Shown: in pieces, positions 159-19,659 of the stretch
Layout: each line of letters begins with the position of its first letter
How positions within the stretch are numbered: position 1 is the stretch's first letter
Source of the DNA: a virus
Reading direction: 5' to 3' (one strand)
Length of the DNA: 24,900 bases
IMG/VR virus record: IMGVR_UViG_3300007734_000507
Location: 1-24,900 of that record
Made by a program: the position numbers and the translations under genes
Notes under the pieces: model-generated
The model's input: only the letters and a program-made list of their open reading frames with translations
The model's database searches: none
Told to the model about the DNA's origin: nothing

Positions 159-420
159 TTATCCACAGGTTATCCACAGATCGGCGCCAAAGTTATCCAC
201 ATTTGCACAGTCTGGTTGCAGTTTGCATCTCAGAACTGGCGCAGTTGTAATACTTTCTGTGATTTTGAGTTAACATAATGGACATTGTATTAAATGGATT
301 TTGTCAGCCGTTTGTAAGCATCTAGAAAAACTCTAGCAAAATCAACAGCTTACAGAAGTTATCCACACTATCCACAGATACCTGTGGATAACTTGCATCT
401 AGCAATTTGCCTGTGGATAA
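159..420. other. DnaA-box cluster, candidate replication origin
   Basis: Exact copies of the DnaA consensus TTATCCACA lie on the + strand at 159-167, 170-178, 193-201 and 359-367. A one-mismatch copy (CTATCCACA) is at 368-376. Inverted exact copies (TGTGGATAA) are at 383-391 and 412-420. The first two boxes start 11 bp apart, about one helical turn, and the third starts 23 bp further on. The two groups bracket a lower-GC stretch (about 240-355) that could serve as an unwinding element. In bacteria, clustered boxes of both orientations beside an AT-rich segment mark oriC, and some phages and plasmids recruit host DnaA in the same way. That the phage uses this as its origin is inference. A packaging or terminase-binding role is the main alternative, given the terminase genes downstream. 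Confidence 0.65.
240..358. other. AT-richer spacer between DnaA-box groups, possible unwinding element
   Basis: This stretch has no open reading frame with a plausible start. It is visibly richer in A and T than the flanks. It holds a TCTAGA palindrome at 321-326 followed by AAAA and a second CTAG at 333-336. Its place between two DnaA-box groups fits a DNA-unwinding element. The functional claim is inference. Confidence 0.3.
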
Positions 421-786
421 CTTTTCGATGGGGGGGAGGGGGTGGTCGGCGGCGGTGATAATTGTGGGAGCATCCGCCCCACCGAAAAAGCGAAAAGTAG
501 AAAAGGGGCAACATCCCCGCTACCTTGCTACGAAAAAAATGGGAGTTGGTGACCAGCGTTGCGACCTACAGGTTTGCAGACCCACCTGATCAGGTATCTG
601 GCGTACAGTTTCGTTACTCGACACCAACACGGCTGGAGACTGCCTTGCAAGTAGGCTCTAGTTTCGGCGAACCGCAATCTCCATGCGTGTTAGTTGTTGG
701 TGGTTTCCATAAGGCAGGATTAGGGCGCAATCCAACAACGAAAAACTCCCGTGATGCCGACACACTGCCCACCAACGCTGATAAAT
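421..786. other. Non-coding, structure-rich spacer upstream of the terminase genes
   Basis: I see no convincing gene here. Open frames exist on both strands, but they lack ATG starts with ribosome-binding sites and have no recognisable protein features. The stretch opens with a G-run block (430-455). It contains a GGGG/CCCC hairpin (505-508 with 515-518) with outer GTAG/CTAC arms. It also has the 12-bp palindrome ACCTGATCAGGT (584-595), a GCCT/AGGC hairpin near 643-656, and an 8-bp inverted pair, CAGCGTTG near 554 and CAACGCTG near 773. It may be a packaging site, a long leader or an uncharacterised RNA. None of these can be settled by eye. Confidence 0.4.
584..595. repeat. 12-bp perfect palindrome
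   Basis: ACCTGATCAGGT is a perfect inverted repeat with no spacer, centred on a GATC, inside the non-coding region before the terminase operon. It could be an operator-type site, or chance. No second copy was noticed in the window. Confidence 0.35.
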
Positions 787-852: not shown

Positions 853-1281
853 GTGAAGATAGAACAGATTGACAGCATCCAAGACGAGCCACAGGCGCAG
901 CTAGAGAAGAAGAAAGCTGGCAGACCCAAGGGTATTTATGGTTTGAAGCGTCAGATACAGGAGTACGCAAGGAATCCTGAACTTGCGTTGCCCAAGACTG
1001 ACAGCCAGAGAATCAAGGACTTGAAGGATATGCTTATAAGGTCGAGTGGTAAGGATGTCGTGCAAAAGATGATTGATATTGCGTTGAACGACAACCATCC
1101 TGCTCAAATGGCGGCTATCAAAATGTGCGTTGACAGGACGCTGCCTATATCCATGTTTGACAAGGATAAAGGCCAGAGGAGTGCGGTCAACATCACAATC
1201 ACTGGCATAGGCGCACCTACAGTAGAGGCAACTACGATTGAGCCAGAGGACATCCAAGACATAGAGGCTAAGAATGGCTGA
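853..1281 (+). CDS. Terminase small subunit (putative)
   Basis: This 142-residue protein is encoded directly before the large terminase and overlaps it by 8 nt, the classic small-subunit position. Its role would be to recognise the packaging site and load the large subunit. The N-terminus carries a basic AT-hook-like stretch (KKKAGRPKG, residues 19-27), often seen in small terminases and suited to DNA binding. A helical middle follows, and the C-terminus is acidic. I chose GTG at 853 because AAGGA (843-847) sits 5 nt upstream. The frame also opens at an ATG at 751, but that extension is rich in Pro/Arg/Cys and has no good ribosome-binding site. The identification rests mainly on position, size and the AT-hook, since small terminases are weakly conserved. 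Confidence 0.7.
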   Translation: MKIEQIDSIQDEPQAQLEKKKAGRPKGIYGLKRQIQEYARNPELALPKTDSQRIKDLKDMLIRSSGKDVVQKMIDIALNDNHPAQMAAIKMCVDRTLPISMFDKDKGQRSAVNITITGIGAPTVEATTIEPEDIQDIEAKNG

Positions 1282-2533
1282 CCTGAACTTTGCGCTATTG
1301 CCTTGGCAACAAGAAGTCTACGCCGACAAGACGAGGTTCAAGGTTGTCGTGGCGGGTAGGCGGTGCGGTAAGTCTAGGTTAGCTGTAACGACACTCTTAA
1401 TAGAGGGGTTGAGTTGCCCCGCGGGATCGGCTGTTCTTTACGTTGCCCCGACTCAGGGGCAGGCTAGACAGATCATTTGGGATGTATTGCTGGATATTGG
1501 GCGGGACATTATTCAGTCTAGCCATGTAAACAACATGGAAGTGACCTTGATTAACGGGGCAAAGATATATGTGAGGGGGTCAGACAGGCCAGATACGTTA
1601 CGGGGTGTCTCCTTGACTTACGCTGTACTGGACGAGGTTGCTGACATTAAGCCTGAGACTTGGGAACAGGTAATTCGTGCGTCATTGTCAGACAAAAAGG
1701 GTAGGTGCATGATGATCGGCACTCCAAAGGGTAGAAATTGGTTCTACGATTTGTACAACTTGGGTCAGGATGGTAGCGATCCTGATTGGAAGTCGTGGCA
1801 TTTCACCACTAAAGACAATCCCTTGATCGACCCTACTGAAATTGAGAGCGCAAAGAAAACCCTTAGCTCATTCGCCTTTAAGCAAGAGTATATGGCGAGT
1901 TTCGATAATGCGGGGAGCGATGTCTTCAAGGAGGAGTGGATTCGGTATGGTGAAATCCCTGAACAGGGTTCTTACTTCATAGCGGTGGACTTAGCGGGGT
2001 TTGAGGAGGTGGCGAAGCAAGCTGCCAACTCCAAGAAGCGTCTTGACCAGAGTGCCATTGCGGTGGTTAAGGTCACCGAGGATGGCAAGTGGTATGTTGA
2101 GAAGATTGAGTTTGGGCGGTGGGACATCAGGACTACGGCGGCGAATATACTGCTGGCTATCAGGGAGTACCGCCCCTTGAGCATTGGGATTGAGCGTGGG
2201 GCGTTAAAGAATGCGGTACTTCCCTATTTGAGTGATTTAATGCGAAAATCCAACATATATGCTCATATTGTGGATTTGACTCATGGGAATCGCAAGAAGT
2301 CAGACCGCATCATTTGGGCATTGCAAGGACGCTTTGAGCATGGCAGAATAGTGCTTAATAAGGAAGAGGATTGGTCGGAGTTCGTTGACCAGTTGCTGAT
2401 GTACCCAAGTCAGGGGGTGCATGACGATCTTCCTGATGCGTTAAGTTATATAGATCAGTTGTCTATAACCTCTTACTTTGAGGCAGATGATGAAGACGAG
2501 TGGCAACCAATTGATATTGTGAGTGGTGTCTAG
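1274..2533 (+). CDS. terL: Terminase large subunit (ATPase and nuclease)
   Basis: This is the DNA-packaging motor, which pumps DNA into the prohead at the portal and cuts the concatemer. At 419 residues it is a normal length. The N-terminal ATPase shows a Walker A motif (AGRRCGKS, residues 27-34) and a Walker B with catalytic acid (YAVLDE, 116-121). The conserved VAPTQGQAR block is near 57-65. The C-terminal RNase H-like nuclease shows a first catalytic Asp in AVDLAG (Asp239) and late acidic residues in HDDLPDA (383-389). The start at 1274 has GAGG 6 nt upstream and overlaps the small-subunit stop, suggesting translational coupling. No motif is missing, so the gene should be functional. Confidence 0.95.
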   Translation: MADLNFALLPWQQEVYADKTRFKVVVAGRRCGKSRLAVTTLLIEGLSCPAGSAVLYVAPTQGQARQIIWDVLLDIGRDIIQSSHVNNMEVTLINGAKIYVRGSDRPDTLRGVSLTYAVLDEVADIKPETWEQVIRASLSDKKGRCMMIGTPKGRNWFYDLYNLGQDGSDPDWKSWHFTTKDNPLIDPTEIESAKKTLSSFAFKQEYMASFDNAGSDVFKEEWIRYGEIPEQGSYFIAVDLAGFEEVAKQAANSKKRLDQSAIAVVKVTEDGKWYVEKIEFGRWDIRTTAANILLAIREYRPLSIGIERGALKNAVLPYLSDLMRKSNIYAHIVDLTHGNRKKSDRIIWALQGRFEHGRIVLNKEEDWSEFVDQLLMYPSQGVHDDLPDALSYIDQLSITSYFEADDEDEWQPIDIVSGV

Positions 2534-18502: not shown

Positions 18503-19213
18503 TTGAGTAATTACACAAAGAGTACCAACTTTGCAACCAAAGATGCTTTGGCTTCTGGCAATGCCTTAAAGATTGTCAAAGGCACTGAGATTGATACTGA
18601 ATTCAATAACATTGCTACTGCTGTTGCAACCAAGGCAGATTTGGTTAGTCCTACCTTTACTGGTACGCCTACATTGCCTACGGGGACTATTGGCGTTACT
18701 CAGTCTGCTGCTAACAATACAACTGCTCTTGCGACAACTGCATTTGTTCAAGCGGCATTGTCTGCTTTGTATCCGGTAGGTGCTATTTACATCAATGCAA
18801 CAAGTTCAACTAATCCTGCAACATCATTAGGCTTTGGCACATGGACTGCCTTTGGTGCTGGTAGGGTCATGGTTGGTTTTGACTCAGGGAATGCACTGTT
18901 TGATGTTGCTGAAGAAACTGGTGGTAGTGCAGATTCAATTCTGAAAAGTCACACACATACTGATTCAGGTCATAAACATTTTGTTGCAAATACTGACACT
19001 ACTGCTGGTTCGGCTTTAAGTAGTTCAAATCAACTTGCCAATACTTTTTCTTCGGCGACTGTCTCTAATTACGTTTTACAAGGTACAGCAACAGCAGCAA
19101 CTACTGGCTTGACAAGTTCTTCAACTGCTGTAATTAGTACAGAAGGTGTATCTGCAACAAACACCAACTACCAGCCGTACATTACTGTGTATATGTGGAA
19201 GCGCACTGTATGA
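18503..19213 (+). CDS. Short tail fiber / collar-type receptor-binding protein
   Basis: The 236-residue protein starts at TTG 18503, supported by AAGGGG (18491-18496) 6 nt upstream and by a typical N-terminus (SNYTKSTNFATKDALASGNA, then VKGTEIDTEFNNIATAVATK). The middle TALATTAFVQAALSALYPVGAIY leads into a T4 gp10/gp12-like tip, with FGTWTAFGAGRVMVGFD (111-127). A His cluster, HTHTDSGHKH (150-159), may bind metal as in T4 gp12. The protein ends YQPYITVYMWKR, a characteristic finish. It is probably the host-contact fiber of the tail tip, distinct from the fiber genes at 7721-11382. Confidence 0.8.
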   Translation: MSNYTKSTNFATKDALASGNALKIVKGTEIDTEFNNIATAVATKADLVSPTFTGTPTLPTGTIGVTQSAANNTTALATTAFVQAALSALYPVGAIYINATSSTNPATSLGFGTWTAFGAGRVMVGFDSGNALFDVAEETGGSADSILKSHTHTDSGHKHFVANTDTTAGSALSSSNQLANTFSSATVSNYVLQGTATAATTGLTSSSTAVISTEGVSATNTNYQPYITVYMWKRTV

Positions 19214-19659
19214 ACCAATTTACAGTTATTGATGATGAGCAATCTACTATTACTGTAGTTGATGGTAAGTTGTCTGACATTGAAAACTTTGATGATTTGA
19301 GTCTTGAACATTGGGTTTGTTTCAATGATAAAAAGCCTATTTTCAATACAGTTTATTTAGACAATCTAAGGGTTGTAATTGGCAAAGATGATAACAAATC
19401 AATTGGTTATGTTTTCTACGGGTTGTTTAAGAGTCCATATTATGATGAAACTTGGTGTCAAGTTGATATGTTCTTTTTAAAGCCTGAGTATAGAAAACAA
19501 GGGATTGGCAAAGAAATGTTTGACTTGGTTGAGACAATTGCAAAGGAAAATGGTTGTAAAAGGTTGATTGCAAGCTATAACCTTAAAGAATCATTAGAGG
19601 TGTTTTATACAAAATTTGGTTTTAATGCTACTCATGTAGCAGTCGCAAAGGAGATTTGA
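19210..19659 (+). CDS. GNAT-family acetyltransferase
   Basis: This is a 149-residue probable N-acetyltransferase using acetyl-CoA. Motif A is visible as VDMFFLKPEYRKQGIGKEMFD, with the pyrophosphate-binding R-K-Q-G-I-G-K at 95-101. The late EVFYTKFGF (130-138) is the typical motif-B end. I chose ATG 19210, which overlaps the fiber stop as ATGA, over an in-frame GTG at 19195. GNAT genes recur next to podovirus tail genes, where they may modify virion or host proteins. The substrate cannot be told from sequence. It lies between the fiber and ejection genes. Confidence 0.85.
   Translation: MNQFTVIDDEQSTITVVDGKLSDIENFDDLSLEHWVCFNDKKPIFNTVYLDNLRVVIGKDDNKSIGYVFYGLFKSPYYDETWCQVDMFFLKPEYRKQGIGKEMFDLVETIAKENGCKRLIASYNLKESLEVFYTKFGFNATHVAVAKEI

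Follow-up and report, generated by a model that had tools for sequence, protein, structure and literature searches.

A conserved DnaA-box array linked to a primase-helicase module, a probable replication origin in a common, uncultivated lake phage

The array and the phage that carries it

The window analysed here (24.9 kb) is the whole of an IMG/VR record, yet only a fragment of the genome of a common, uncultivated lake phage. The terL, portal, and capsid genes match PHROG and Pfam families, and an array of DnaA boxes lies at the left edge ahead of the terminase genes, a position indicating that the replication genes normally found upstream are missing from the record. The features of the locus are listed below, with distances in bp given relative to an AT-rich near-dyad at 273–288 ("dyad").

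159–167, plus strand: DnaA box 1, TTATCCACA; most relatives keep a box at dyad -114
170–178, plus strand: DnaA box 2, TTATCCACA; 11 bp from box 1, dyad -103/-102
193–201, plus strand: DnaA box 3, TTATCCACA; 23 bp from box 2, dyad -80
251–300, no strand: least stable stretch (nearest-neighbour energies, 50-bp windows), candidate DNA unwinding element
270–293, plus strand: conserved AT-rich element TTAACATAATGGACATTGTATTAA; 95% column conservation
340–352, plus strand: perfect IHF consensus WATCAANNNNTTR (AATCAACAGCTTA); site predicted by consensus match
359–367, plus strand: DnaA box 4, TTATCCACA; dyad +86
368–376, plus strand: imperfect DnaA box 5, CTATCCACA, with one mismatch; core kept in most relatives
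383–391, minus strand: DnaA box 6, TTATCCACA; dyad +110
412–420, minus strand: DnaA box 7, TTATCCACA; close relatives only, 23% column conservation
429–443, plus strand: G-tract element of the GGGGGGGAGGGGG type, adjoining the array; 93% column conservation
853–1281, plus strand: putative small terminase gene (terS), preceding terL; no family match
1274–2533, plus strand: terL, large terminase; PHROG and Pfam matches

The six exact boxes and one single-mismatch box that a sequence-only reading of this DNA had reported within about 260 bp were found at 159–420, with the first pair spaced by 11 bp from start to start. That reading's judgement that chance was a very unlikely source is borne out by the numbers: 0.27 exact copies are expected in the whole window (first-order Markov model), and the scan probability of six within 262 bp is approximately 2e-14. 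The density of the 9-mer is uneven, with no exact TTATCCACA outside 159–420 in the 24.9-kb record. The AT-richer stretch said to separate two groups of boxes is also present (99.2% of the 50-bp windows in the record are more stable than 251–300), and the two groups themselves stand, but their orientation is not simply opposite, as the left group reads plus, plus, plus and the right group plus, plus (imperfect), minus, minus.

Viral contigs hold no fewer than 598 stretches that encode TerL relatives, 80 of which were fetched. The long relatives span 31–35 kb, and three of these (G003, 33.7 kb; G004, 32.0 kb; G007, 34.5 kb) are probably complete, with 36–126 bp repeated identically at the two ends. 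A further genome (G001, L087–L089; 41.2 kb) consists of a 33.3-kb unit and, after it, part of another copy that is mostly 4–14% diverged, and looks like a mixed-strain assembly. Against isolated phages, TerL identity was <60%, with the best among the matches listed at 24–27%, and in the genome collection the sole match was a contig from a bin that bears the label beta proteobacterium; the phage in that bin is without boxes, so the match gives no host for the box-carrying clade. The first 8 kb of the window, compared at the nucleotide level to 50,697 phage records, returned nothing beyond short matches within a collagen-like tail gene region, and the central stretch of the array (230–360) had no match among the same records. 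The array had no match among plasmids, an Rfam scan of the window returned no match, and no tRNAs were found in it. A GNAT acetyltransferase gene (19195–19659) sits amid the genes of the structural module.

Conserved geometry, the near-dyad, and the IHF site

The array is present in nearly all close relatives. Boxes 1–6 are conserved among relatives in general, box 7 among close ones only. Spacings between boxes of 11, 23, 166, and 24 bp are retained in dozens of relatives. Boxes 2 and 3 stand 23 bp apart in 59 of the 63 arrays, while the 14-bp spacer between them occurs as 26 different sequences, indicating that it is the geometry and not the sequence that is kept. Across 26 aligned arrays, mean column conservation was 100% for box 2 (all columns identical in 26/26 relatives) and 98% for box 3, compared to 64% for the spacer between.

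The most meltable part of the DNA near the array lies between both box groups, and the core of the conserved AT-rich element, ACATAATGGACATTGT (273–288), is a near-dyad located inside this least stable stretch; among the relatives the element takes the form A(C/G)TTWACATAATGGACATTGTATWAA. Distances between boxes and dyad are quantised, at -114, -103, -80, +86, and +110 within the clade of the window phage and at -79 and -24 in arrays that accompany a different terminase backbone. All degenerate matches to the dyad in a first set of fetched loci (124/124) were ≤300 bp from an exact DnaA box. When 2.9 million viral contigs were then searched with only the dyad, 112 stretches were returned, and 38 of the 72 newly fetched loci possessed at least three boxes (≤1 mismatch) within 450 bp. 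Searching by the dyad first recovers DnaA boxes at the same fixed distances, including in phages whose match to the primase-helicase has just 36% identity across 209 residues. Many other hits of the dyad scan had neither boxes nor related replication genes; chance dyad matches are expected in a collection of such size. No direct, iteron-like repeats were found between the box groups (202–358). The basal origin unwinding system (BUS), described in PMC8287927, calls for at least three DnaA-trios (3'-[GA]A[TA]-5') next to a box; no run of three strict trios occurs in the array region (101–480).

All 54 arrays counted for the clade have a perfect IHF consensus at dyad +67/+66, compared to an expectation of 0.055 per region. 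Set apart from these 54 are five arrays assigned to a third group, which have the -103 box in common with them but differ in sequence at the IHF position. The consensus is missing from those five arrays and mostly missing from the arrays on the other backbone. A combination of boxes with an IHF site is also found in datA (PMC5835720), and the array could by analogy be a decoy, present in multiple copies, at which a complex of DnaA boxes and IHF either titrates DnaA or promotes DnaA-ATP hydrolysis and halts initiation by the host. Such a decoy would leave unexplained both a meltable dyad at a fixed distance from the boxes and the linkage, described below, to a primase-helicase module and not to the phage backbone, and we consider it improbable. 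Titration may occur as a side effect of an origin, and as the function of the array it accounts less readily than recruitment of DnaA for the linkage to these genes and for the constant spacing.

Linkage to a replication module and the exchange of terminases

Upstream of the array, the relatives have an early replication module that encodes an HTH protein, a RuvC-like protein, a DUF2800/PD-(D/E)XK exonuclease, an SSB-like protein (without a family match; its acidic SSB-like tail was recognised by eye), a primase-helicase (Pfam AAA_25 and the PHROG families for primase and for helicase), and, in the lineages examined, an uncharacterised protein of mostly 215–230 aa. The structure model of this last protein (pLDDT 74.6) has no solved-structure relative at E <0.001 and its viral matches are mostly unnamed, and thus nothing in it points to a DnaA-like domain or to a loader of helicase. 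A Pfam scan of one complete relative (G003) matched the primase-helicase, exonuclease, and RuvC families and identified no DNA polymerase, DnaA, plasmid-type Rep, or integrase family, a scan that divergent proteins could escape; the one PHROG match to ‘DNA polymerase/primase’ in the same genome corresponds to the helicase part of the primase-helicase. Since the uncharacterised protein is encoded upstream of the array and is without a known solved-structure relative, a module-encoded protein of this kind might bind the 9-mers, their identity to the DnaA box being coincidental. We regard this as the least probable of the readings, with TTATCCACA being the consensus box of host DnaA and tandem arrays of it recurring in many unrelated viral contigs.

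The array tracks the primase-helicase gene. Loci with a primase-helicase of ≥72% identity and at least 1.5 kb of downstream sequence all possessed boxes, mostly 1.2–1.4 kb past the gene. At 51–53% identity, most loci had, at +1.25 to +1.54 kb, between one and three exact boxes together with boxes bearing one mismatch, the exceptions being fragments too short to judge and one locus (L270) with the primase-helicase (52%) present and the boxes and dyad absent; a few other primase-helicase relatives have a single exact box left. Amongst distinct contigs with the same terminase (TerL ≥80%), an array (≥2 exact boxes) was present in 56 of the 61 that encode the primase-helicase and in 0 of the 20 that encode a DUF1376 protein instead (Fisher p = 1e-14, a value that overstates independence because the sequences are related, and the DUF1376 phages are also more distant by TerL). 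Relatives at 82–85% TerL identity that have the DUF1376 gene and are without the primase-helicase have no array.

In L077 (3624–4514) and relatives, the DUF1376 gene replaces the primase-helicase module, and L077 has further genes for a Sak-type annealing protein and for a protein resembling a sliding clamp. Several degenerate palindromic repeats similar to TTAGTGAGYGCTYACT occur left of the G-tract, at the usual place of the array, in the box-less relatives L071, L074, L077, L084, L069, and L270, and are possibly a different origin or operator set; in this respect L270 resembles the DUF1376 phages.

The whole module, from the HTH protein to the uncharacterised protein, together with the boxes and dyad, also occurs beside an unrelated terminase pair, where the array sits between terS_B and terL_B. 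As the array tracks the primase-helicase and accompanies it to an unrelated terminase, it forms part of the replication module rather than of the packaging region. One contig with the early operon in two inverted copies (L262) appears chimeric and was left out of this evidence for a module swap. The description of the array as lying beside the packaging genes is accurate for the window, though the neighbour that matters is the replication module, which lies immediately upstream and beyond the edge of the fragment.

This exchange of terminases bears on the possibility that the boxes mark a site near a genome end that is bound during packaging or DNA entry, the latter as suggested for injection in T5, whose injection stop signal region is described as having DnaA boxes (PMC13250531). 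The array does adjoin terS and a G-tract conserved family-wide, but box-less relatives keep both the G-tract and the terminase, the boxes and dyad follow the replication module onto the unrelated terminase, and several relatives assemble as circles, so that no fixed end is known at the array. A role in packaging or entry is accordingly very unlikely for the boxes. The G-tract, which stays with the terminase in box-less relatives (left of terS in L077, L064, L104, and others), may itself be a packaging (cos/pac) signal outside of the origin. Between the array and terS there is no clear gene at 525–800, and the distance from array to terL varies by hundreds of bp among relatives, which suggests an optional insertion at this position. 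A structured RNA at 525–800 was considered and set aside (fold z-scores of -0.4 and -1.7, not convincing).

The strongest rival explanation is a promoter switch, in which host DnaA, acting together with an HTH repressor of the phage that binds the dyad, would time the passage from replication to expression of the late packaging and structural genes. The 270–293 element contains a sigma-70-like TTGAGT-17-TATTAA by eye, its near-dyad could serve as an operator, and the element lies upstream of terS–terL in the window and between terS_B and terL_B on the other backbone. DnaA is an established transcription regulator (PMC8203912). Set against this, a promoter scan did not score the TTGAGT-17-TATTAA sequence, its -35 part is poorly conserved, the element is missing from box-less phages with the same late genes, and seven boxes in 260 bp plus an IHF site exceed the usual simple operator. 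We consider a switch of this type unlikely as the function of the array, and an origin and a promoter may coexist at one element.

A probable DnaA-dependent origin and its relation to known systems

From the conserved elements, their fixed geometry, and the module linkage, we infer that the array is likely the replication origin of the phage, similar to oriC and P1 oriR and fired by host DnaA, probably with IHF, while the phage supplies the primase-helicase. Host DnaA would bind both box groups, probably helped by an IHF-induced bend at 340–352, and would open the AT-rich stretch around the near-dyad (270–293). The phage primase-helicase, the gene for which is located ~1.2 kb upstream in complete relatives, would be loaded onto the opened DNA, with synthesis performed by the host replicase. 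The near-dyad is possibly bound by a phage protein, for which the HTH protein at the head of the module is a candidate, and transcription may assist opening, or be regulated, at the promoter-like 270–293 element.

Of the criteria used for oriC-type origins, a box cluster far above chance, an AT-rich unwinding element (as a sequence property), and an IHF consensus inside the array were all found, while a GC-skew switch at the array was not. In three long relatives, the detrended minimum of the skew lies 2.8–4.5 kb to the left of the array, a distance at which skew lends the origin no support. Phage skew tends to follow gene direction, making it a weak criterion. Also weighing against an origin are L270, the few relatives with a single exact box, the lack of DnaA-trios, and the promoter-like character of an element located immediately ahead of late genes. 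The earlier suggestion that the phage recruits host DnaA is thus sustained in part, as the fixed architecture, the linkage to the replication module, and the IHF and AT-rich/dyad elements give it good comparative support, while the change in skew that would have accompanied it is absent.

More tentatively, and at somewhat less than even expectation, the abundant lineage may carry a portable module for which host DnaA, IHF, and a phage dyad-binding factor suffice without an initiator of the Rep or O type, such that DnaA hands the origin directly to the phage primase-helicase and replication is coupled to the host DnaA supply and cell cycle. Among well-studied phages, an initiator encoded by the phage itself is the usual case. 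If the proposal is true, the division of labour would be different, with host DnaA initiating and the phage supplying the primase-helicase; multiplication of the phage would be tied to host replication control, and the system would offer a direct handle on how DnaA loads a non-host helicase. The idea is open to testing, given a short element with mapped parts and a natural swap in the form of the box-less DUF1376 relatives. The combination of boxes at -103/-80, the near-dyad, and IHF at +67 could also serve as a signature for origins in uncultivated phages.

DnaA boxes in phages have precedents, being known or predicted in the T5 region (PMC13250531) and in Pseudomonas phage 254 (PMC11512268). 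Isolated phages yielded many short matches to the boxes, and unrelated viral contigs (L105, L113, L117, L147, L151, and others) have dense head-to-tail arrays of TTATCCACA with 11-bp spacing; DnaA arrays seem to be common in uncultivated phages. A contig of genome G188 (L363) has a dense DnaA-box cluster at 1430–1600 between glycosyltransferase-like genes, with no adjoining dnaA visible in the 3 kb of sequence covered. What appears to be new is a DnaA origin without iterons or Rep that has a near-dyad and resides on a portable phage primase-helicase module, and no description of such an element was found among the open-licence papers that the literature searches returned.

The array resembles datA/DARS in joining a DnaA-box cluster to an IHF site, and differs in holding a conserved AT-rich near-dyad and in its linkage to replication genes. 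Copies of TTATCCACA or predicted DnaA-box origins likewise occur in isolated phages (T5-like terminal repeats, Pseudomonas phage 254, and Vibrio phage BD5), but these are different phages, and the dyad/IHF combination was not seen in them, the 230–360 stretch having no match in the 50,697 phage records. As in lambda-type origins, the array lies within or adjoining the phage replication module; unlike these, which depend on a dedicated initiator, it is without initiator iterons.

With the E. coli-type oriC, the array shares consensus DnaA boxes, an IHF site, and a meltable element, with DnaA as the presumed sole initiator, while it differs in belonging to a phage of about 32–34 kb, in having no GC-skew switch, and in a primase-helicase that presumably replaces host DnaB/DnaG. 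A copied host oriC was dropped as an explanation, because the triple of boxes with 11/23-bp spacing was found in none of 121 genomes around the beta proteobacterium bin and the tandem 11-bp pair in 1 of 150 genomes from the order of that bin.

P1 oriR possesses two DnaA-box arrays, an AT-rich unwinding region, and an IHF site beside one array, with DnaA as a helper (PMC4980987). As in P1 oriR (and the iteron plasmids RK2, pSC101, and R6K), box arrays flank an unwinding region and an IHF site is present. Unlike P1 oriR, the array is without Rep iterons, the complete relative has no match to a Rep-type initiator or integrase, and the phage brings its own primase-helicase.
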